Virus record (IMG/VR): IMGVR_UViG_3300032893_000290 | Span: 1 to 22,406 of that record | Reading direction: 5' to 3' (one strand) | DNA length: 22,406 bases | Source of the DNA: a virus | Shown here: in pieces, positions 2,085 through 17,449 of the stretch | Layout: each line of letters starts with the position of its first letter | Numbering within the stretch: the first letter of the stretch is position 1 | Program-made: the position numbers and the translations under genes | The notes under the pieces: model-generated | The model's input: only the letters and a program-made list of their open reading frames with translations | What the model was told of the DNA's origin: nothing | The model's database searches: none

Positions 2085-3149
2085 TCACAGCACTGCCGGG
2101 GGGCCAGGCACATTCGGCCAGGCCGGGGCGGCTAGGCCGGTGATATGGGCGCCGGAAGACGGTTTGGAGCAGACAAGATCAAGCGCGGTGAGCAGAACGC
2201 CGATGCTGGCGAGCTGTCCGAGCGGGATCATTGATTCAAAGCCGGTGAAGATGAACGGCGCCGCCTCGGACATATACATGGCGAGATAGCGAGAGTTGAT
2301 GATATACATTTCCCCACGCGGACACCACGGATCAGGGAAGATGGGCGTGTTTAGAACCTGGATCGCCCGGAAACCGGAATTCACCACATCTCCCTTGCCG
2401 TACCGGCTTCGCGGCGATGTCTGGTATTGCTCAAACCCCATGAAATCGGCCATGAGCGTGGCCCAATCGGCGGGATTCATCACGGCGAAATCAGCATCTT
2501 CACCGCCAGCTCCGGTCTGCACGCGGGTAAGCATCGTGGCCATGCCGACGCGGGAGGCGATATTCGATATGCCGCCCTGGTTTGGATAATATTGGCCCTG
2601 CCAGAAGGCATTGGACTTGCTGATGCCGCCATAACTGGAAACGTTTGTCCCGTTGTCATAGGCCATATAGAGGCTATCGAGCGCATTCAGATTAGCGGTG
2701 TTATTCGTGAACAGGCTTTGAGATATTGCCTGTTTGATAACCACGGCCGCATCCGCTGTAACGGCGCGGAGCTTCGGAATAATCACATCCGATGATTGAA
2801 CAATTGCTTCCAGATTGAAGAACCCGATGGGAACCATGCCGATTTTCAGATTGAAAGACGCATCGTTAATAGCGGCCTGGTCTTCCGGCATCGGGAAGTC
2901 ACCTGCGAAACTTCCCCAATTGAAGGTGGTGAAGCTGCTTCCCTGCGTTGGAACGGTTATTTGAGACGCGCCGCCCCTCGCTGACTGAGCGTTAGCAAGG
3001 AGAAGGGACAGCAAAGGTGTCGATTGGTATATCTGAACAAAGAGGCTTGGTATAACTGCACGATTCGTGATGTTAGTTAGCTGTTGACCAAGCGCGCCGC
3101 CTGGCATTAACCCGCCAGATACGCCGCTCGTAAAGAATGTCTGTGACAC
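2085..3149 (-). CDS. Major capsid protein (probable)
   Basis: A 354-residue protein, GTG start with AGGAG seven bases upstream. It follows a scaffold-like gene by 11 bases and comes after terminase and portal in the standard order. The N-terminal region (NRAVIPSLFVQIYQSTPLLSLLLANAQ) and the following beta-rich segment (SQITVPTQGSSFTTFNWGSF, FNLKIGMVPIGFFNLEAIVQ) resemble coat proteins of HK97-like fold. A Gly/Asp-rich loop, the NPADWATLMADFMG segment and the C-terminal domain (REMYIINSRYL-like stretch, FIFTGFESMIPLGQLASIG) fit too. Length is typical. The assignment rests on gene order and fold-like pattern; no catalytic residues are expected. There is no sign of an N-terminal prohead protease delta domain, and a separate scaffold gene is present. 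Confidence 0.78.
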   Translation of the reverse strand: MSQTFFTSGVSGGLMPGGALGQQLTNITNRAVIPSLFVQIYQSTPLLSLLLANAQSARGGASQITVPTQGSSFTTFNWGSFAGDFPMPEDQAAINDASFNLKIGMVPIGFFNLEAIVQSSDVIIPKLRAVTADAAVVIKQAISQSLFTNNTANLNALDSLYMAYDNGTNVSSYGGISKSNAFWQGQYYPNQGGISNIASRVGMATMLTRVQTGAGGEDADFAVMNPADWATLMADFMGFEQYQTSPRSRYGKGDVVNSGFRAIQVLNTPIFPDPWCPRGEMYIINSRYLAMYMSEAAPFIFTGFESMIPLGQLASIGVLLTALDLVCSKPSSGAHITGLAAPAWPNVPGPPAVL

Positions 3150-4511: not shown

Positions 4512-4561
4512 GTTTTTGCTGCGGCAAAATGCGGATGTTTTTTAATCATCCGCGATTTGGC

Positions 4562-4600
4562 TTACTTGCGTTTGCCGCGTCTTCCTTTGCGACGAGCCAT
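4562..4600 (-). CDS. 12-residue very basic micropeptide, copy 2 (MARRKGRRGKRK)
   Basis: A 13-codon frame encoding MARRKGRRGKRK, nine of twelve residues Arg or Lys. AAGGA lies eight bases before the ATG. It is paralogous to the peptide encoded at 4660-4698: same length, nine of twelve residues identical, same SD spacing. Among the nine shared residues four codons differ only synonymously (residues 2, 8, 10 and 11), which suggests selection on the peptide rather than a copied DNA motif. Gene callers would skip it for length. Possible roles are nucleic-acid or scaffold binding inside the head, or a leader peptide affecting translation of downstream genes; neither is shown by sequence. Confidence 0.55.
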   Translation of the reverse strand: MARRKGRRGKRK

Positions 4601-4659
4601 GATGAAAATCCTTTAAAACGACGATTTTGGGGGAAATACAGCTTATGGCTGTAAATCAG

Positions 4660-4698
4660 TTACTTCCGCTTGCCACGGTGCATTTTGCGCTTGGCCAT
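4660..4698 (-). CDS. 12-residue very basic micropeptide, copy 1 (MAKRKMHRGKRK)
   Basis: A 13-codon frame encoding MAKRKMHRGKRK. It has the best ribosome binding site in this stretch: GAGGAG eight bases before the ATG. It is the first reading frame after the probable late promoter at 4772-4801. The 59-base gap to its paralogue contains a small inverted repeat (TACAGC 4637-4642 / GCTGTA 4648-4653). The C-terminal RGKRK is shared with the second copy. No family is recognised. See the entry at 4562-4600 for the codon evidence. Confidence 0.55.
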   Translation of the reverse strand: MAKRKMHRGKRK

Positions 4699-4771: not shown

Positions 4772-4801
4772 TTAGTATTTCCGTTTCAGAATACCCGTCA
4801 A
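4772..4801 (-). promoter_or_regulatory. Candidate sigma70 promoter of the late head segment
   Basis: On the minus strand TTGACG (4796-4801) is followed after 18 bases by TACTAA (4772-4777). The -35 is good and the -10 is weak. It lies just downstream of the hairpin at 4824-4848 and upstream of the two micropeptides, scaffold and capsid genes, where a new transcript would be expected. The leader also holds a short hairpin (CCGG/CCGG around ATTTA, near 4725-4745). Confidence 0.35.
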
Positions 4802-4818
4802 AAGAATAAGCTATATGT

Positions 4819-5082
4819 TCAAGAAACCTCGCACATTAGCGGGGTTTTCGCATGATTTTTCGACTTATTTGTCAAATTTTCGGAAATCATGCTTCGCAAC
4901 ATTTTCGCACGCTTTGCCATTAATTCTTCGATCTTCTTTTCAATGCTTGGTTTTATTTTTGCGCGACCGAATTTCCATTGTGTTACTGTCCAGGACGAAA
5001 CACCTACATTGCGCGCCAAGTCTTTTTGCCATTGGCGCCCATACAATAGCTTCCCCCGAATTTCCAATTCAGATGGCGTCAT
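4819..5082 (-). CDS. Small helix-turn-helix DNA-binding protein
   Basis: An 87-residue basic protein. Residues 15-40 (YGRQWQKDLARNVGVSSWTV, then TQWKFGR) form a typical HTH: a helix, a turn at NVGVS and a recognition helix. A Lys/Arg-rich helix follows (KPSIEKKIEELMAKRAKML). I chose the ATG at 5082 because it overlaps the stop of the preceding gene by 14 bases and starts right before the conserved part; a longer frame reaches 5172 but would cover much of the neighbour. It could be a repressor or a small terminase-like DNA binder; its place between portal and scaffold is unusual for a repressor. The last codons contain the hairpin at 4824-4848. Confidence 0.6.
   Translation of the reverse strand: MTPSELEIRGKLLYGRQWQKDLARNVGVSSWTVTQWKFGRAKIKPSIEKKIEELMAKRAKMLRSMISENLTNKSKNHAKTPLMCEVS
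4824..4848 (-). terminator. Hairpin at the end of the HTH gene, probable terminator
   Basis: AAACCTCGC (4824-4832) and GCGGGGTTT (4839-4847) form a nine-pair stem around ACATTA, with one G-U wobble on the plus strand and one mismatch on the minus strand. The minus strand continues with TTTCTT, the plus strand with TTTTC, so it could stop transcription both ways. It overlaps the last codons of the HTH gene and separates the portal segment from the scaffold/capsid segment. Confidence 0.5.
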
Positions 5083-5350
5083 TGTCTCGGAATTTCCAAT
5101 CTTCCAATAGATCACGCTGCAACACTGCGACCGCCCCAACCAATTCTGACGTCCCACGACTTCCAACATCAAATCTCACGCCAACAAATCCTCCCTCGCA
5201 TATCGTGGCGACTGCAACCGCTACAATTTCTCCTCTTTCAGCTTCCTCCAATAGTTTTTGCAATAACGATATTACGTTTTGATTCGGGCCTGGTGTTTTA
5301 TAGTCCCCAAAAGGCTTTATAATTTCTGCCGGTCTGTTCATCTTTTTCAT
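5069..5350 (-). CDS. Small conserved-type phage protein (GEIVAVAVAT type), unknown role
   Basis: A 93-residue protein. The pattern VISLLQKLLEEAERGEIVAV, followed by a Gly-rich strand (ICEGGFVGVRFDVGSR) and a helical end (LVGAVAVLQRDLLEDWKF), is one I recognise from many small uncharacterised phage proteins with a helix, a beta hairpin and a second helix. No catalytic residues are apparent. AGGA lies about nine bases before the ATG, and the gene begins three bases after the portal stop. It overlaps the HTH gene at its 3' end, so the two are probably translated together. The function is unknown in the family as far as I know. Confidence 0.65.
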   Translation of the reverse strand: MKKMNRPAEIIKPFGDYKTPGPNQNVISLLQKLLEEAERGEIVAVAVATICEGGFVGVRFDVGSRGTSELVGAVAVLQRDLLEDWKFRDNDAI

Positions 5351-5353
5351 AGA

Positions 5354-7186
5354 TTATTTCCTTCCTTTTCCAGGCGGTACGACTCCATGCTGCATTTGCT
5401 CTTGATGAGCAGCAAGGGCGGCGATTTCTGCGGTTTTTACTTCCGCAATAACCGCATCAGCATTTGGCGGATTGATTTGCTCCACAAATTGCGTATTCGA
5501 CATCGCGTTTGCTTTTTTGAGGAGGATTGCTTTCTGTTCCGCCTCGTCTCCAAAGGCCGGGGAAGAACTATGAGCATCAACAGACACGCGAATATTATGC
5601 GGTATTTCGTGCATATAGAACTGATACGCCTTCATGCCTGGCACAGGAGGTTGAACCGATGGATCAATCAACTTACCAAGCAATTCCTGAGAGAACTCCT
5701 TTTCTGGCAAAACCCATGCCGTTAAAAGAGTGCTGGATTTTGCTTTCAAAAGATCAAGCAATAGACCGGCACACGCTTGTATTGATCTTTCTATGCGCAA
5801 AGATTTTGTTTTGAATCGAGGAGTCGCATTTGAGGTTAATTGTCCGGTTTGTCCGTGGCTCCTGACAGATGGAGATGCCAATCCCTGCAAAGTTGGAGTC
5901 ATGCCCGTCATCACGTCAAATAGGCGCTCTGTTTGCTGTAAGCTGGTCCACAAATCCGGAGGAAGGGTTGGCGCCAGTACGATTGGAGGTTTCGCGGTAG
6001 GATCGGGATCGTGCATCCATCCGCCAGGCTTCGTCAGCTTCGATTTCTTGTCCTGGTCCATTCCAGCGCCACCTAAAAACGCTATCGGTGGATTTTCCTG
6101 GAGACGCAAAAGGCCGTTTATTCCATTCACTCTTTTGTTTAGCTGTCTTTGCAAAAGTGCCAAATTGGCAATTTCCGAACGCCCCCAAAAATAATTCTGC
6201 AACCTGTTTGGGCAGAATTCCACAAAAGGCTGTTTGAAGGCGAGGGGATTTGCCTCAAAGGGCGTTCTGGTTGGCTGTTTATTGGCAGGGTCAAGCGCAT
6301 CCGCGAAAATGTTCATACGCTGTTCTTTGCCAAACAGGATGATATTTCCCACGAGCTGGAATGTACTCCACTCCCGCCGTCCCTCATCGTCTGTTCTGGA
6401 ATCGTCATGTATCCACAGCTCATCAACACGGACAAGCTCTGTGATAATCTTGGGATCAAATGACGGATATGGACCGGCAAGCCATTGAACCATGCCATTT
6501 GTTGTTTGCGGATTTGCCGCTCCTACGCCGCCCACGCCCTGGTATGGCTGGAATCCACCGACAATAACTTGCTTCAGCATCGCCGCCTGGTCCGGTCCAT
6601 CGGCAGAACGTGTTTGCGCTGAAAACTGAATCGCCCTCTTGTAAAGTTTCTTGGCGTCAGGATGATCTTTTATCAAAATCCTGAATTGATCCCGCGTCAG
6701 ATACGTTGAATGAACAAATGCCTCTTGCTGGTCTAAACTATTTATATCCGCCCTCAATACGCCCATAAATTCCGGCATAATCAAATGCGGCTCCAGACCG
6801 TTCACGGTCCAAATCATTTTGACGAATGTGATTCCCTTTACCAGCGCCCAGCGTGTAGCCTCTTCAAAAAGCGTGTCCAGTTCGGCGTGGCGGGAATTCT
6901 CCATCAGTTCACGGGCGATTACTTCCGCTTGTGCGCGTTGCAGAGCCGAACCGCCGCCTGGATAGGTCACTAGGTATCGAAGATCGGTGGTAGTGCAAAT
7001 ATAGCTTGTTAGGTCTTCGATGCTGTCAAAAGTCTTATTGTAAATCGCAGCATTGCCATTTTCATCGCCAGATAAGTATATGTTTCTGAAAAAAGCGCCT
7101 CTCTGCAAGCGATCAAGCGCGTCGGGAGTGCATTGGCGTATGATCTCATAGAGCCATTCTTCAAGGTCACGATCAGGGATAATCAC
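5354..7186 (-). CDS. Portal protein
   Basis: A 610-residue protein that fits the dodecameric portal through which DNA enters and leaves the head. Features are an acidic helical N-terminus, a helical region near 85-120 (RAQAEVIARELMENSRHAEL, then a W-x-L-V-K-G strand) and a beta-rich wing. The stem/crown part has NRLQNYFWGRSEIANLALLQ followed by the QRQLNKRVNGINGL helix, typical of P22-like and SU10-like portals. A Gly-rich segment (MTGMTPTLQGLASPSV) and a charged C-terminus ending PPGKGRK follow. The start is a GTG overlapping the upstream TGA (GTGA), with GGGAG at suitable distance, and the next Met is far inside. Position downstream of terminase supports the call. Confidence 0.82.
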   Translation of the reverse strand: MIIPDRDLEEWLYEIIRQCTPDALDRLQRGAFFRNIYLSGDENGNAAIYNKTFDSIEDLTSYICTTTDLRYLVTYPGGGSALQRAQAEVIARELMENSRHAELDTLFEEATRWALVKGITFVKMIWTVNGLEPHLIMPEFMGVLRADINSLDQQEAFVHSTYLTRDQFRILIKDHPDAKKLYKRAIQFSAQTRSADGPDQAAMLKQVIVGGFQPYQGVGGVGAANPQTTNGMVQWLAGPYPSFDPKIITELVRVDELWIHDDSRTDDEGRREWSTFQLVGNIILFGKEQRMNIFADALDPANKQPTRTPFEANPLAFKQPFVEFCPNRLQNYFWGRSEIANLALLQRQLNKRVNGINGLLRLQENPPIAFLGGAGMDQDKKSKLTKPGGWMHDPDPTAKPPIVLAPTLPPDLWTSLQQTERLFDVMTGMTPTLQGLASPSVRSHGQTGQLTSNATPRFKTKSLRIERSIQACAGLLLDLLKAKSSTLLTAWVLPEKEFSQELLGKLIDPSVQPPVPGMKAYQFYMHEIPHNIRVSVDAHSSSPAFGDEAEQKAILLKKANAMSNTQFVEQINPPNADAVIAEVKTAEIAALAAHQEQMQHGVVPPGKGRK

Positions 7187-8068: not shown

Positions 8069-9925
8069 CTATGCCAAGCCGCGTTCTGACAGGAATTTGT
8101 TGACGGGCGGCTCTGGTTTGGGCGCGTTCAATGCCCTCGTAACGCTGTTATTCAGGACATCAGAAACTTTCGATTGAACATTATCCGTGGCTCTCATAGC
8201 CCTATCATATGTGAGGCCCTGAGCGATCATCGAGGGGCGAATCCAGCTTTTCCAACACTCATCGGCCAATGCCGCCGCGAATACGCGGTCATCATGCAGG
8301 CCTCCAGGCGCCCCGACTTCGGCGCCTTCCTGCACGACCTCGTACATTTCCCGGATACAGGACACCGAATTTATCACGATTTGATCGGTCACATGACTGT
8401 CCCGGAACCCACCCAAAAGCCGGAATTTCGTGCGGACGGATGTTTGCCAGTTATAGACATATCCAGCGCCCATGGAGTCCGGGCGATGGTAAAGATACCA
8501 CCTCATCGTTTCCAAAAAGTTGGTTGCTCCAGCGGGCATATTCATCGCCTTCTGGTATTCTTCGGAGCGGAGCTGCTGACGGACGGAATTAAGCTCCATC
8601 ATCACCTGGTCGCCAGGACCGCCGATTTCCAAATTTACAATACAATTGGAGTACCACCCGGCGAGATGCGCCATGACCCATGCCGCCTGGCCGGGTGTAT
8701 GGTTGTTGCTGGCGTATTCCGCGACTTGAACCCATTTGTCAGCGAAGCATCGGGCAACACAAATCACGTTGTTGTCCGCATTGTCATTGCGGCCGTATGC
8801 GGGGTCAAAACCAATCGCGTACCTGGCGCCAGGAACCGGCGCCTCCCATACGCGAAGCTCCACCTCATTATATCGCTCTGGCGTGATGATTTGCTCACAT
8901 TTCGAGGCCATGAAGCTATTGCCGTGGTAGTAGCGATACCAAAGCGAGGGGTTATTTCTGGCTCTTTCCAGGTCATCCGTTACCTTCCTGATTTGGAAAA
9001 ATGACATGCCCGTGGAAACAAAGGCGTCGTCTTCCGTCCAGGGCTGATTCTCATCCAGCATTTCCTGGCTGACAGTTTTGTTCGACTCTTTCCACCTGAT
9101 CCAGGCCAATTGCTCTTGGGTGATAATCCACCCATAGGCCTCCTTGACCTCGGATATTTTCTCCGTCTCTCTACCGGACGGGGGAGAGGCGCCAAAAATC
9201 TTGAATCTTGGGTCCTTTTTGTCGATCCTGTTAAGCGGCTTGCTCCACCACCCGGCGAATAGGCGCCGCTTGACGTAAATATCCTGCCCAGCATCTTCCC
9301 ACATGCCGCGCCAATGGTTTTGACCATGCGCCGTACTCTCGAATATGTAGAGACGGTTCGGATTATCCATGGACATGGTTTCCATAAAGGAATTCAGGCC
9401 TTCCACTCGGCCATATTTGGAAACCTCGGAAAGCAGTGCCACGGTATAGGCGCGTGACTCGCCCCACGTTGTTTTTGACTTTCCAGCTACCAGGAAATCC
9501 AATCTGGAACCGTTGGAAAACTCCAGGAAAGCCGCGTTATTTTTGGTTATCGTGAACGCCTTCCCAAAGTAGTTTTGGGGGAAACTGCGCATATATCTCG
9601 TCAAAACGTCCCGGAATGCCTGGCTGTTTTTGTCATTATCTATGACTAGGGCGCCGAAAATTCGGGGATGGATTGCCAGCCAAAATAACAAAATGGCAAG
9701 CGTGATTGTGGAAATGCCAAGCTGACGCGATTTAAGTATCAGAAAAATATGGATTCCTTCATCGAGGCCGTTGCCGATGAAGTCCAATGCTCTTTGCTGG
9801 CTCTCCCAAAGCTCCAGCTTTGTGCCTTCTTCAGGCGATTCCGCTGCGGACTCTTTACTGTCGATCCGCAGGTTTGAGATAAATTGGGAGAACGCCTTGA
9901 GCCATTTTCCAGATTTACTGGCCAT
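8069..9925 (-). CDS. terL: Terminase large subunit (ATPase and nuclease)
   Basis: A 618-residue protein that cuts and packages phage DNA into the procapsid through the portal. The ATPase part has a Walker A variant KSRQLGIST at 65-73, a hydrophobic strand with an acidic end at about 162-168 (VALLSEV, a Walker B-like place with Ser instead of the first Asp), and FESTAHG at 195-201 as coupling motif. The RNase H-like nuclease domain shows IGFDPAYG (Asp374), LEIGG (Glu433) and HDDRV (Asp545/546), the expected metal ligands. An in-frame TAA lies four codons upstream, so the ATG at 9925 is the first possible start. It is unusually far (about 20 bases) from the strong GGAGG; a two-codon frame ATG-GCC-TGA sits in between. 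Length and motifs are complete. Confidence 0.93.
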   Translation of the reverse strand: MASKSGKWLKAFSQFISNLRIDSKESAAESPEEGTKLELWESQQRALDFIGNGLDEGIHIFLILKSRQLGISTITLAILLFWLAIHPRIFGALVIDNDKNSQAFRDVLTRYMRSFPQNYFGKAFTITKNNAAFLEFSNGSRLDFLVAGKSKTTWGESRAYTVALLSEVSKYGRVEGLNSFMETMSMDNPNRLYIFESTAHGQNHWRGMWEDAGQDIYVKRRLFAGWWSKPLNRIDKKDPRFKIFGASPPSGRETEKISEVKEAYGWIITQEQLAWIRWKESNKTVSQEMLDENQPWTEDDAFVSTGMSFFQIRKVTDDLERARNNPSLWYRYYHGNSFMASKCEQIITPERYNEVELRVWEAPVPGARYAIGFDPAYGRNDNADNNVICVARCFADKWVQVAEYASNNHTPGQAAWVMAHLAGWYSNCIVNLEIGGPGDQVMMELNSVRQQLRSEEYQKAMNMPAGATNFLETMRWYLYHRPDSMGAGYVYNWQTSVRTKFRLLGGFRDSHVTDQIVINSVSCIREMYEVVQEGAEVGAPGGLHDDRVFAAALADECWKSWIRPSMIAQGLTYDRAMRATDNVQSKVSDVLNNSVTRALNAPKPEPPVNKFLSERGLA

Positions 9926-10588: not shown

Positions 10589-11224
10589 TTATTCTGCTGC
10601 GGCTCTCAATTCGTCTCGGATTCTCAGCACGGTAGAATGTCCGGTGCCGGTGGTTTTGTGAACAACCCACGGACGCATTCCGCCCGCCAGCAATTCCACC
10701 ACGCGCTGGTATCGCTTGGGGTCGCTCACCTCAATTCCCTTGGGACCGGGGCGCCGCCCCTCTTCCTTAACCCTCGCCAGGCCCGACTTAATGCGCGCCT
10801 GGATCATGCTGCGCTCGAATTCCGCGAAGACGCCAAGCATTTGGAAAAGGGCGCGGCCGGAAGGGGTGGTTGTGTCAAGATTCTGCTGGTGCAGATACAG
10901 CCCCACTTTGGCGGAATCCAGGTCCTGAAGGGTGTGGATCAGGTTGCCCAGGGACCGGCCAAGGCGGTCAACCGCCCAAACCAGGATAATATCGAACTCG
11001 CCCGCGTCTGCCGCCTTCAGCATGGCATTCAGCCCCGGCCTGGCCTCGCGCCCCTTGCCGCCGCTAATGCCCTGATCGGTGTATTCGCCTACGACTTCCC
11101 AGCCGCGCTTTTCTGCCAAATCCATCAGCTCACGACGCTGGTTTTCCGTGGTTTGATCGGAAGTGCTGACTCGCGTGTAGATGCAAGCCTTCATGGGACC
11201 GGTGTTTTTCGGGGATTTAGCCAT
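10589..11224 (-). CDS. Small serine recombinase (resolvase/invertase family)
   Basis: A 211-residue site-specific recombinase. The catalytic domain starts at about 11 with CIYTRVSTSDQ; Ser20 is the nucleophile, with Arg18 nearby. AVDRLGRS (Asp86, Arg87, Arg90) and the AEFERSMI helix (about 135-142) are the other family marks. A short C-terminal HTH of ~45 residues (RYQRVVELLAGGM, then HKTTGTGHSTVLRIRDEL) follows. Length and layout fit resolvases and invertases, not large serine integrases. GGAAAG precedes the ATG. Its substrate is not evident: it could act on its own DNA, as a multimer resolvase, or be a transposon or phage passenger. It is only loosely similar to the second recombinase at 13398. 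Confidence 0.88.
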   Translation of the reverse strand: MAKSPKNTGPMKACIYTRVSTSDQTTENQRRELMDLAEKRGWEVVGEYTDQGISGGKGREARPGLNAMLKAADAGEFDIILVWAVDRLGRSLGNLIHTLQDLDSAKVGLYLHQQNLDTTTPSGRALFQMLGVFAEFERSMIQARIKSGLARVKEEGRRPGPKGIEVSDPKRYQRVVELLAGGMRPWVVHKTTGTGHSTVLRIRDELRAAAE

Positions 11225-13117: not shown

Positions 13118-13401
13118 TTTCTGTACCTCCACGGATATTGCAGTTTCAGCGCGGCCCGGGCCTGGCGCTGGCTCTTGCGCAACTCAGCAGAGGTCTTAAT
13201 CGGCCCAGCGCCAAACCAGAAGCGCACCGGGAAAGCGCCCTCATCACGCGCCCGCATGAAGTCGGCACCGATCCGGCAGATTCTCCCTTGCGCATCGGCG
13301 CAGAGCGGATTTGTCCCGCCGATCCAGCTTGTGGCATTGTTCACCCACGTCTGGAAACAGTGAAACTCGCCGTCTGCCGGGCGGTCTGGTAGTTCGCTCA
13401 T
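13114..13401 (-). CDS. 95-residue protein of the recombinase cassette, unknown role
   Basis: A basic protein with Trp- and Cys-containing first half (FHCFQTWVNNATSWIGG, then NPLCADAQGRICRIG) and an Arg-rich helical end (LRKSQRQARAALKLQYPWRY). The ATG at 13401 overlaps the recombinase stop (ATGA) and has AAAGGA eight bases upstream; a longer frame to 13458 overlaps the recombinase too far and is less likely. Three cysteines are visible but no standard zinc motif. It is coupled on both sides, so it is probably a true member of the cassette. Confidence 0.6.
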   Translation of the reverse strand: MSELPDRPADGEFHCFQTWVNNATSWIGGTNPLCADAQGRICRIGADFMRARDEGAFPVRFWFGAGPIKTSAELRKSQRQARAALKLQYPWRYRK

Positions 13402-14024
13402 TGTGTGTCCTTTCTGTCTGCTTCTGACGCTAGGCGCTCGTCCCGCGCCCGCTTCCAATAAAAAAACTTGGTACGGCTGATATATGGCTTCAGCCGGCGG
13501 GCGATCTCGTTCATTTCCAGTGGGGGAACCTCGGCCAGCAGCGCCTCGGCCATCGCCTCAATCTCCGGCGTCATCTTGTCTTTGCGGCCCGGCTTTATCC
13601 CGCGCTCCCGGCTGGCGGCTTGCCCGGCCTTGGTCCGCTCGATGATCAGGTCACGCTCCATCTGGGCAAAGCCCGCCAGGATCGTGATCATCAGCTTGCC
13701 TATGGCCGTCCGCCCGTCGATGCTCTCGGTGAGGCTGACGATCTGTACGTCCCGCTCATGCAGCCGCTTGATCATCTCCAACACGTCAATGACCGAGCGC
13801 CCGAGACGGTCGAGCTTCCACACCACCAGCGTATCGCCAGCGCGCAGCGCCTTCATGCAGCCCCGCAGGCCGGGACGGTCGAACCGCGATCCGCTCGCCT
13901 GATCAGTGTAAACCCGCTCCCGGTCCACGCCGAACTTGACCAGCGCATCCATCTGCAAATCGAGCTTCTGATCGCCCGTCGAAATCCTCGCGTAGCCGAT
14001 CTTGGGGCGGTCCGTATCTGTCAT
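13398..14024 (-). CDS. Second small serine recombinase (resolvase/invertase family)
   Basis: A 208-residue enzyme with all family marks: IGYARISTGDQ (Ser15 nucleophile, Arg13), VYTDQASGSRFDRPGL (about 38-53), KLDRLGRS (Asp72, Arg73, Arg76) and GFAQMERDLIIERTKAG (118-134). The C-terminal HTH (~155-190) is typical of Tn3-like resolvases and DNA invertases. The start is not supported by a clear SD; the leader is AT-rich. The gene and the two following are GC-richer than the adjoining YqaJ gene, a sign of separate origin. It may act on inverted repeats in the adjoining 14025-14259 gap; no invertible segment is visible. Confidence 0.9.
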   Translation of the reverse strand: MTDTDRPKIGYARISTGDQKLDLQMDALVKFGVDRERVYTDQASGSRFDRPGLRGCMKALRAGDTLVVWKLDRLGRSVIDVLEMIKRLHERDVQIVSLTESIDGRTAIGKLMITILAGFAQMERDLIIERTKAGQAASRERGIKPGRKDKMTPEIEAMAEALLAEVPPLEMNEIARRLKPYISRTKFFYWKRARDERLASEADRKDTQ

Positions 14025-15899: not shown

Positions 15900-16059
15900 A
15901 TGCAATCCTTTCAATGTATTGCACTAGATATTTCCGGCAGTTTCTTACTTGTTTGCGGGTAGCAACGATATTCTTTTTTTTGGCTCAGCGCAATCCAAAA
16001 TGGACATTTCGCATTTTTCTTGTTAAACAGTGAGTCCTAAAAAATATGGAAACGTCCAA
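15900..16059. promoter_or_regulatory. Divergent control region between leftward and rightward early genes
   Basis: 160 bases separate the leftward small gene/ERF operon from the rightward Cro-like gene. For the plus strand, TGGACA (16001-16006), 17 bases, TAAACA (16024-16029) is a possible promoter. On the minus strand TTGCGC, 17 bases, TATCGT is visible near 15962-15992. A GANTC site (GAGTC, 16032-16036), the CcrM/GcrA-type target, lies at the presumed plus-strand start. The imperfect palindrome TCCA-AAA-TGGA overlaps the plus-strand -35. None of these is strong alone. Confidence 0.4.
15901..15923 (-). repeat. Inverted repeat around the SD of the first leftward gene
   Basis: TGCAAT (15901-15906) and ATTGCA (15918-15923) form perfect six-base arms with an 11-base spacer. 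An inner CAAT/ATTG pair is also present. In the minus-strand RNA the arms would enclose the AAAGGA ribosome binding site two bases before the ATG, so it may be an operator, a translational switch, or both. GCAATCC recurs at 15990-15996. Confidence 0.4.
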
Positions 16060-16296
16060 ATGGATCACAAAGCGTTTTTGGAACGGTTTGCCCCTGGAGA
16101 CGCAGCTAAGGCATTCGCTGTTTCCAGAATTTGCATAAGCCATTGGAAAAAGCGAGGAATTCCGTCTCGGTTTTGGCTTCTGGCGGAGAAAATATCCCAG
16201 GAAAAGGGGTGGAACGTCACGGCCGCAGATTTGGCCAATTCCGCGACTGGAATACGGATAGAAAAGCGCAGGGAAAAAGCCGGTGAAGGGATTTGA
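16060..16296 (+). CDS. Cro-like / Carph-isopro-type DNA-binding regulator
   Basis: A 78-residue protein with an HTH at about 10-45: FLERFAPGDAAKAFAVSRIC, then ISHWKKRGIPSRFWLLAEKI. The pair of a short AF-x-V-S-x-x-x-I-S-x-W-K helix and a following Ile-Pro is the pattern of small phage Cro or YdaS-like repressors. The end is basic (KRREKAGEGI). I place the start at the ATG (16060), which has GGA eight bases upstream; a GTG at 16030 would add ten residues without an SD. It is the first gene right of the divergent region, matching a Cro-like switch protein. Its stop lies inside the next gene. Confidence 0.75.
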   Translation: MDHKAFLERFAPGDAAKAFAVSRICISHWKKRGIPSRFWLLAEKISQEKGWNVTAADLANSATGIRIEKRREKAGEGI

Positions 16297-17449
16297 CGAA
16301 AAATGGCTCATGGACTATCAAGCCAGAATTCGACAATCTAAGAGTGAGTCTAAAGTAGTGTTGTTGTCTAAAATTGAAAAAGATGCGCCTAAGAAGAAAT
16401 TATCTTCAAACCAAAAAGCCACCAATGAAGAACTTGTTTCTGCGTGGGAAGAAACAAAAAACATACGAATCATTGGTGAAAAATTTGGAATGCGACCGTC
16501 GAGCGTCCATGAAAGACTTGTTAAACTAACTGGGGGGAATCTCAGTTATAAACCAATAACTGAGGAGGAAAAAAATATTATAATTTCAAAATACTGTGAG
16601 TATGCAAATTCTGGTAGACGTGAAAAACTCGCAAAACAATTGGGACGCCACCCTCTTTGGTTATCAAGAAAAGCTAAAGAATTTGGACTTACAAATTATA
16701 ATCGCCCTCACGATTGGGCAAAAAGTGATTTAGAAAATGTTGAATCTGAATTTCGTGAAATTCATACATTATTTAATGACCGCGAACTTTCTGACAAATT
16801 TGGAGTCTCGTTAGGCACCATCGTAAAATGGCGAAAAATACTGGGGTTAAAGAAACCAAAGGAAGGCCGTTGGTCATTAAGTCCACATCCGAGAGGTGCT
16901 ACAGGTTTAGTAATATCACCAGAACATCGTGAGAAACTTATTTCAGGAATCAAAAAAGCATGGAATGACCCCAACCATAGATTAAATTCTGATGAGTATA
17001 AACAGATTTGCTCTAATCGAATGATGAATAGGAAGGCCAATAAACCGGAAGAAAATCCTTATTCCCGCTGTTCTGGAGGGAAAAGGTCTGATCTTGGAAA
17101 TGTTTATTTTAGATCATCATGGGAAGCAAATTACGCTAGATATTTGAATTTTCTTGTCAAACACAATAAAATATCAAAATGGGAGTATGAATCTGATACT
17201 TTCATTTTCCACGAAAAAAAGAGAGGAATTAGATCATATAAGCCAGATTTTAAAATCTGGGAAAATGAATCGTCAGAACCATACTTTGTAGAAATAAAGG
17301 GGTGGATGGACGATAAGAGTAAAACAAAATTAAAGTATATGACAAAATACTATCCAGAAATAAAAGTTATAATTGTCGGTGAATCAGAATATAAGTCAAT
17401 TAGAGATTCGGTCAGAAAAATGATTCCGGAATGGGAAAATGTAAAATGA
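16283..17449 (+). CDS. Homing-endonuclease-like protein with PD-(D/E)XK nuclease domain
   Basis: A 388-residue protein, AT-rich and Lys-rich compared with neighbours. Three HTH-like segments can be seen at about 47-83 (IRIIGEKFGMRPSSVHERLV), 94-138 and 145-190 (DKFGVSLGTIVKWRKILGLK). A NUMOD3-like block follows at about 212-253 (SPEHREKLISGIKKAWNDPN). The nuclease domain has GNVYFRSSWEANYARYL (Glu281), SYKPDFKIW (Asp322) and YFVEIKGWMD (Glu337, Lys339), the PD-(D/E)XK signature. The start is a GTG with AGGGA at suitable distance and overlaps the Cro-like gene; a later ATG (16310) is possible. It is probably a free-standing homing endonuclease that arrived by transfer; its target site is not visible. 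Confidence 0.75.
   Translation: MKGFDEKWLMDYQARIRQSKSESKVVLLSKIEKDAPKKKLSSNQKATNEELVSAWEETKNIRIIGEKFGMRPSSVHERLVKLTGGNLSYKPITEEEKNIIISKYCEYANSGRREKLAKQLGRHPLWLSRKAKEFGLTNYNRPHDWAKSDLENVESEFREIHTLFNDRELSDKFGVSLGTIVKWRKILGLKKPKEGRWSLSPHPRGATGLVISPEHREKLISGIKKAWNDPNHRLNSDEYKQICSNRMMNRKANKPEENPYSRCSGGKRSDLGNVYFRSSWEANYARYLNFLVKHNKISKWEYESDTFIFHEKKRGIRSYKPDFKIWENESSEPYFVEIKGWMDDKSKTKLKYMTKYYPEIKVIIVGESEYKSIRDSVRKMIPEWENVK

Follow-up and report, generated by a model that had tools for sequence, protein, structure and literature searches.

A highly basic small protein encoded with the head genes is a trait of microvirus J and of the viral protamines, and the micropeptides described here share it. 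J belongs to single-stranded DNA phages and has 24-40 residues with a capsid-binding C-terminal part, and the core peptide mu/X of adenovirus is an Arg-rich product cut from a larger precursor by a protease. J, the DNA-binding and packaging protein of phiX174, lies on ordered DNA in the virion (PMC13386984), and protamine-like, Arg-rich condensing proteins are described in double-stranded DNA viruses (PMC5899202, PMC6163548).

We identify two micropeptide genes, A and B, in one whole virus record of 22,406 bases, hereafter the window. Comparison across related loci demonstrates that the two frames belong to a separately translated micropeptide family in a large clade of uncultured tailed phages. 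Like J, these micropeptides are very small, basic and phage-encoded together with head genes; J itself binds packaged DNA. Unlike J, they have 10-16 residues and occur in tailed terminase phages. The J-type capsid-binding C-terminal segment is absent, as they end in ..KRK, ..GRK or ..TRR with no hydrophobic tail. Richness in Arg is shared with adenovirus mu/X, baculovirus P6.9 and other viral protamines, whose feature is condensation; unlike mu, however, the micropeptides are translated at their final length, and mu and P6.9 are found in unrelated eukaryotic viruses. Judged by sequence, microvirus J and the viral protamines appear to be the nearest systems that would work alike, and the testable features do not make the micropeptides members of either.

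In the literature searched for small phage genes, for basic peptides and for the peptide sequences themselves, the micropeptides are not described and no paper prints their sequences; an earlier sequence-only reading likewise knew of no described family. The large-scale survey of small phage genes reportedly made by Fremin and colleagues in 2022 lay outside this search, so the micropeptides may be listed there, unnamed; such surveys may hold them as anonymous families. We place the micropeptides among the small basic viral peptides, with a real chance that they form a class of their own.

Organization of the head block

On the minus strand of the window the terminase large subunit and portal genes are followed by two small genes, the two micropeptide frames, the Gly/Pro-rich gene, the 64-aa gene, the scaffold-like gene and the capsid gene (Table 1). 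The micropeptides had been read as the first frames of the head segment, which holds only if the portal is excluded, since the portal gene lies upstream. The window portal also matches the annotated portal of MW202753, and its nearest Pfam match is the portal family of SU10 and phiEco32. Both the scaffold-like protein and the capsid protein (net charge -5) are acidic, and the former is presumably the scaffold. Pfam yields no function for the neighbour genes of the head block; the Gly/Pro-rich protein, whose gene is always linked to the micropeptides, has no match in Pfam or PHROG.

Table 1. Head-block features of the window, in minus-strand order
Feature	Position	Strand	Remarks
Terminase large subunit	8069-9925	-	
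Portal protein	5354-7186	-	Upstream of micropeptides; SU10_portal E 9e-5, under curated cut-off
Small gene between portal and micropeptides	5069-5350	-	
HTH-like small gene in portal-micropeptide gap	4819-5172	-	phrog_3626, phrog_12690; weak YdaS-like Pfam match
Sigma70-like promoter candidate	4774-4801	-	TTGACG-16-AATACT, upstream of A; 9/12 matches
Micropeptide gene A	4660-4698	-	MAKRKMHRGKRK, stop TAA; AGGAG ends 8 nt before ATG
Small hairpin between A and B	4637-4653	-	TACAGC-cataa-GCTGTA; read from sequence
Micropeptide gene B	4562-4600	-	MARRKGRRGKRK, stop TAA; AAGGA ends 8 nt before ATG
Hairpin after B, before Gly/Pro-rich gene	4531-4553	-	GCGGATG-N9-CATCCGC; counterpart of relatives' terminator-like hairpins
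Gly/Pro-rich protein, 176 aa	3981-4511	-	First long gene after micropeptides
Conserved small head-block protein, 64 aa	3771-3965	-	
Scaffold-like acidic protein, 202 aa	3160-3768	-	Net charge -9; charge and position before capsid gene
Major capsid protein	2085-3149	-	PHROG 9953 major head protein, E 5.5e-22

The HTH-like gene lies immediately ahead of the micropeptides' candidate promoter and is not conserved in distant relatives; in near relatives it is possibly a regulator of the head block. Elsewhere in the window, two genes read from their translations as resolvase-like serine recombinases (10589-11224 and 13398-14024). An AT-rich stretch (16030-17449, + strand; GC 0.40 vs about 0.5-0.55), whose opposite strand carries a 388-aa gene that looks DNA-binding or endonuclease-like, was probably acquired recently.

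Coding evidence for the micropeptide genes

The two 12-residue frames, each with a good ribosome-binding site 8 nt before its ATG, are present as the sequence-only reading had described them. Its count of nine identical residues out of 12 between A and B is likewise correct, a match with P=0.00055 against residue shuffles of equal composition, as are the four synonymous codon differences (A2 GCC/GCT, R8 CGT/CGC, K10 AAG/AAA, R11 CGG/CGC). Among 20,000 dinucleotide shuffles of the 307-nt intergenic stretch, one such frame arose 7 times and two frames never. The peptide of gene A is identical, with synonymous changes, in four related loci (L002, L004, L005 and L010), where the orthologues of gene B read MARRKGHRGKRK and MARRKGSRGKRK.

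Across 87 loci we collected 128 frames, which encode 93 distinct peptides, mostly of 10-16 residues (36% Arg, 24% Lys), with a net charge of +5 to +8 in all but two of the 93; the stop is TAA in 111 of the 128 frames. The argument that the peptides themselves are kept is borne out, since synonymous change exceeds replacement change and length, TAA stop and position are conserved. In 38 disjoint pairs, picked at >=60% identity and thus by a choice that favours similar peptides, pN/pS is about 0.32 (pS 0.50, pN 0.16), and in locus pairs chosen by capsid similarity alone the differences at codon positions 1, 2 and 3 number 117, 106 and 210. In the micropeptides, CGT and CGC make up 86.5% of Arg codons and CGA, AGA and AGG together less than 3%; the CGT and CGC share is 76% for the capsid gene and 49.5% over all ORFs of 200 codons or more. 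A Shine-Dalgarno match of 5-7 nt precedes 103 of the 128 frames, which had been picked with a weaker ribosome-binding-site filter, vs 45 of 870 random positions.

The last micropeptide is usually followed by a hairpin, with a mean folding z of -2.28 over 87 loci (below -2 in 52) against -0.38 for random controls; several loci have textbook terminators there (L019, L024 and L117). Hairpins after internal copies are weak by the same statistics (mean z -1.16), and where the window has its hairpin between A and B, L002, L005 and L010 have a different paired sequence. Taken together, purifying selection, an Arg-codon bias stronger than that of the capsid gene, good ribosome-binding sites and the hairpin that follows the final copy argue for genuine, well-expressed genes. 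On this comparative evidence we regard the micropeptide frames as almost certainly translated.

Distribution and linkage among related loci

Searches of IMG/VR with the capsid and the portal returned 24 and 12 loci, and capsid alignment reached hundreds more, from which 80 were kept, together with 6 from bacterial assemblies. Capsid-anchored loci were fetched without using the micropeptide frame, and 91 of them, a few being one contig fetched twice, hold enough upstream sequence. The sequence-only reading had proposed to seek the same short frame upstream of the scaffold and capsid genes of relatives, and 89 of these 91 loci have it: 77 carry, at the expected place, a frame with >=45% Arg+Lys and a ribosome-binding site, 11 more do so once the thresholds are relaxed slightly, and L117 has a longer derived form. 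Only L113 and L120 among the 91 show no frame. Relative to the window, capsid identity goes down to about 36%, and the frames keep their character throughout, with 10-16 residues, about 60% Arg+Lys, a net charge usually of +5 to +8 and one to three copies, always between the portal and the Gly/Pro-rich, scaffold and capsid genes. Related loci contain 36 such frames in 18.4 kb of target interval vs 3 in 609 kb elsewhere, and the complete deposited genome MW202753 (35.6 kb) has exactly two, both at the head-block place.

Queried as DNA, the head block matched no deposited phage; close relatives number just two among deposited records, both uncultured, and we found no cultured phage with these micropeptide genes. 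Among outgroups, the head blocks of the Myxococcus phages Mx8 and Mx9, Stenotrophomonas phage BUCT555, Vibrio phage 1.205 and Hydrogenobaculum phage 1 contain no such frame, and Kuravirus SU10 and phiEco32 have no room for one between portal and scaffold.

A degenerate pattern of the clade-2 B type (MARKARK.RK.RK), written without a stop codon, was run on 2.9 million viral contigs of IMG/VR. All 80 kept matches lie at the head-block place, 77 of them with the scaffold/capsid block downstream and the remaining 3 at contig ends with the portal preceding, and TAA follows immediately in all 80, although the pattern had no stop. A second pattern (..HKGRKGRRK) gave 15 of 15 matches at this place, with the portal gene inverted alongside, and a third, the window's own B type, gave 4 of 4. 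That every match falls here argues that the micropeptide sequence is specific to this locus, and the inverted portal in some of them indicates that the micropeptides follow the scaffold/capsid block and not the portal. Inversion of the portal relative to the scaffold and capsid genes is seen in L014, L015, L021, L022, L025 and L326-L339; it covers a large part of clade 1 and is an unusual split of the head gene block, in which the portal begins, on the opposite strand, at a distance of about 190 nt from the micropeptide.

In the capsid tree the frames occur on both sides of the deepest split, and also on the long branch of L070, which by parsimony makes them an ancestral trait. Most clade-1 loci have a single copy, the window's group has two or three, and copy number in clade 2 ranges from one to three, with types that remain recognisable (MY.K..KRxRKxRR first, MARKARKxRKxRK next and MRRKGRKAKR third). 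Relatives lacking the frame, which had been named in advance as grounds for refutation, are confined to one terminal subclade whose neighbours keep an altered, equally charged peptide, in the form of 18-25-residue Met/Pro/Lys variants with a net charge still of +6 to +8. The frame is lost in 36 of 53 loci fetched as near relatives of L113. For the frame-less subclade (L113, L255 and L268), the near-complete record G002 has no clear replacement and no relocated frame, and weak candidates for relocation in G001 are unsupported by the neighbour of that record. This loss means that the micropeptides are not indispensable.

A longer related frame, for example MFDISETAEKRGRKMARKGRK of 21 aa, sits about 1.4-1.5 kb upstream of the capsid gene in L053, L054, L056, L057, L058 and L115. 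In L058 and L115 a terminator-like hairpin comes next, and beyond it another basic frame (MAYGSSCRSKKRSTRK), an arrangement that suggests a fused or extended form. Extra basic frames with ribosome-binding sites lie inside the scaffold/capsid block of L023 (1849-1884) and of L078 (some 330 nt ahead of the capsid gene), at a distance from the usual place, and L018 and L022 have further basic frames inside the block.

Candidate roles of the micropeptides

Short basic frames near hairpins could act in regulation rather than in the head. In one such reading they would be leader peptides, whose Arg/Lys-dependent translation decides hairpin termination into the scaffold/capsid unit (attenuation) or couples translation. 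Like the trp and his attenuator leaders, the micropeptides are short frames with a ribosome-binding site, mostly followed by a hairpin or terminator after the last frame, and both leaders and micropeptides are short and basic. The position of promoter-like motifs depends on the clade. The candidate in the window is weak alone, being near chance level (0.6 such matches expected by chance), and all motif counts come from loci that are related within a clade and so are not independent. Of 50 loci in clade 1, the window's own clade, 38 have TTGAC[ATG] no more than 150 nt ahead of the first frame, as a leader would have it, and none has TTGACA after the frames. In clade 2, by contrast, TTGACA follows the last frame and precedes the Gly/Pro-rich gene in 26 of 37 loci, and the motif stands before the frames in 8 of 37. 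If these motifs act as promoters, they place the frames at the head of the scaffold/capsid unit in clade 1 and at the end of the portal unit in clade 2; in the latter clade the peptides would then not be a 5' leader of the scaffold/capsid unit. Unlike trp and his leaders, moreover, the micropeptides use favoured Arg codons, with the rare ones that would make translation slow or limiting nearly absent, come as up to three frames with separate ribosome-binding sites, and are under peptide selection that keeps Gly and His positions and distinct A and B types, not only Arg/Lys codons. Codon use, selection and Shine-Dalgarno matches are marks of well-translated genes, not of stalling leaders. The ribosome-level leader proposed by the sequence-only reading is thus weakened, by the clade-2 motif and the codons alike, and we consider it unlikely. 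We are similarly sceptical that the peptides are arginine-rich RNA-binding regulators that bind the adjacent hairpins and set late gene expression. Their length, charge and composition fit an arginine-rich motif such as the boxB-binding segment of lambda N or those of lentiviral Tat and Rev, and hairpins adjoin the genes in most loci. Stems and loops, however, share no sequence between distant loci, so a sequence-specific RNA motif was rejected, and the order of Arg and Lys drifts freely while charge is kept. Unlike the lambda N segment, the micropeptides are free-standing and have neither an effector domain nor a conserved target hairpin, whereas arginine-rich motifs are as a rule part of larger effectors.

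Many phage small proteins act on the host, and dispensability in one subclade would suit cationic peptides directed against a host nucleic-acid enzyme, the ribosome or the membrane, or against defence, that are encoded in the head block by chance. Host-directed genes usually vary in place and presence, however, and the strict linkage to scaffold and capsid down to 36% capsid identity makes this reading improbable. Far less probable still is a conserved DNA or RNA element, or an antisense gene, that mimics a basic frame by chance. Antisense hypothetical proteins are annotated over the micropeptides in MW202753.1 (4740-4877 and 4874-5038) and MW202825.1 (25683-25943), and gene annotation missed the micropeptide genes in the records checked. 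These antisense ORFs are hardly conserved between the two genomes, being alignable over 15 residues only, and the antisense-gene reading was rejected because no antisense frame is open through the micropeptide frames in 48 of 87 loci. The concentration of change at synonymous positions and the failure of shuffles to yield the frames also speak against a non-coding element, and an Rfam search gave no match.

We propose that the micropeptides are polycations of head assembly that bind DNA, RNA or acidic head proteins, a role to which, reasoning from sequence, we give somewhat less than an even chance. They would be made in quantity late in infection, from short cistrons that combine strong ribosome-binding sites with the most favoured Arg codons, and would act in head assembly as small unstructured polycations. 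Binding would be by charge to nucleic acid, either the packaged genome or DNA and RNA around the procapsid, or alternatively to the acidic surface of scaffold or capsid, and the bound peptides would neutralise and bridge. Neutralising and bridging by charge would make total charge matter more than exact sequence, and charge that stays constant while sequence and length change freely is the pattern expected of a charge-based binder. Late abundant synthesis, the binding partner and presence in heads are what we infer, and the protamine-like or scaffold-cofactor role suggested by the sequence-only reading stands in this sense as the best inference. From charge alone, DNA, RNA and protein partners cannot be told apart. 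The weakly acidic scaffold of clade 2 (-1 to -2) counts against binding to an acidic scaffold, and to our knowledge tailed double-stranded DNA phages generally package without protamine, which counts against a head polycation. A bolder reading, which we hold to be possible but rather doubtful, is that the micropeptides represent a new class of phage gene, namely free-standing polycations of 10-16 residues that would bind the genome or the scaffold as counter-ions inside the heads of tailed phages that package by terminase; we know of no such phage in which the counter-ion job of the head has its own gene.

Genes of 10-16 codons are too short for the length limits that most gene callers apply, and peptides almost entirely of Arg and Lys would vanish in tryptic proteomics. 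Nearly every member of a large phage clade has the micropeptide genes, which are under selection and keep a fixed place in the head block; if they do form a new class, few conserved genes known would be as short. Should they not be head polycations, position-anchored comparison is still shown to find ultra-short genes of fixed position. If they are, a task ascribed to polyamines and metal ions would have a gene of its own in tailed phages.
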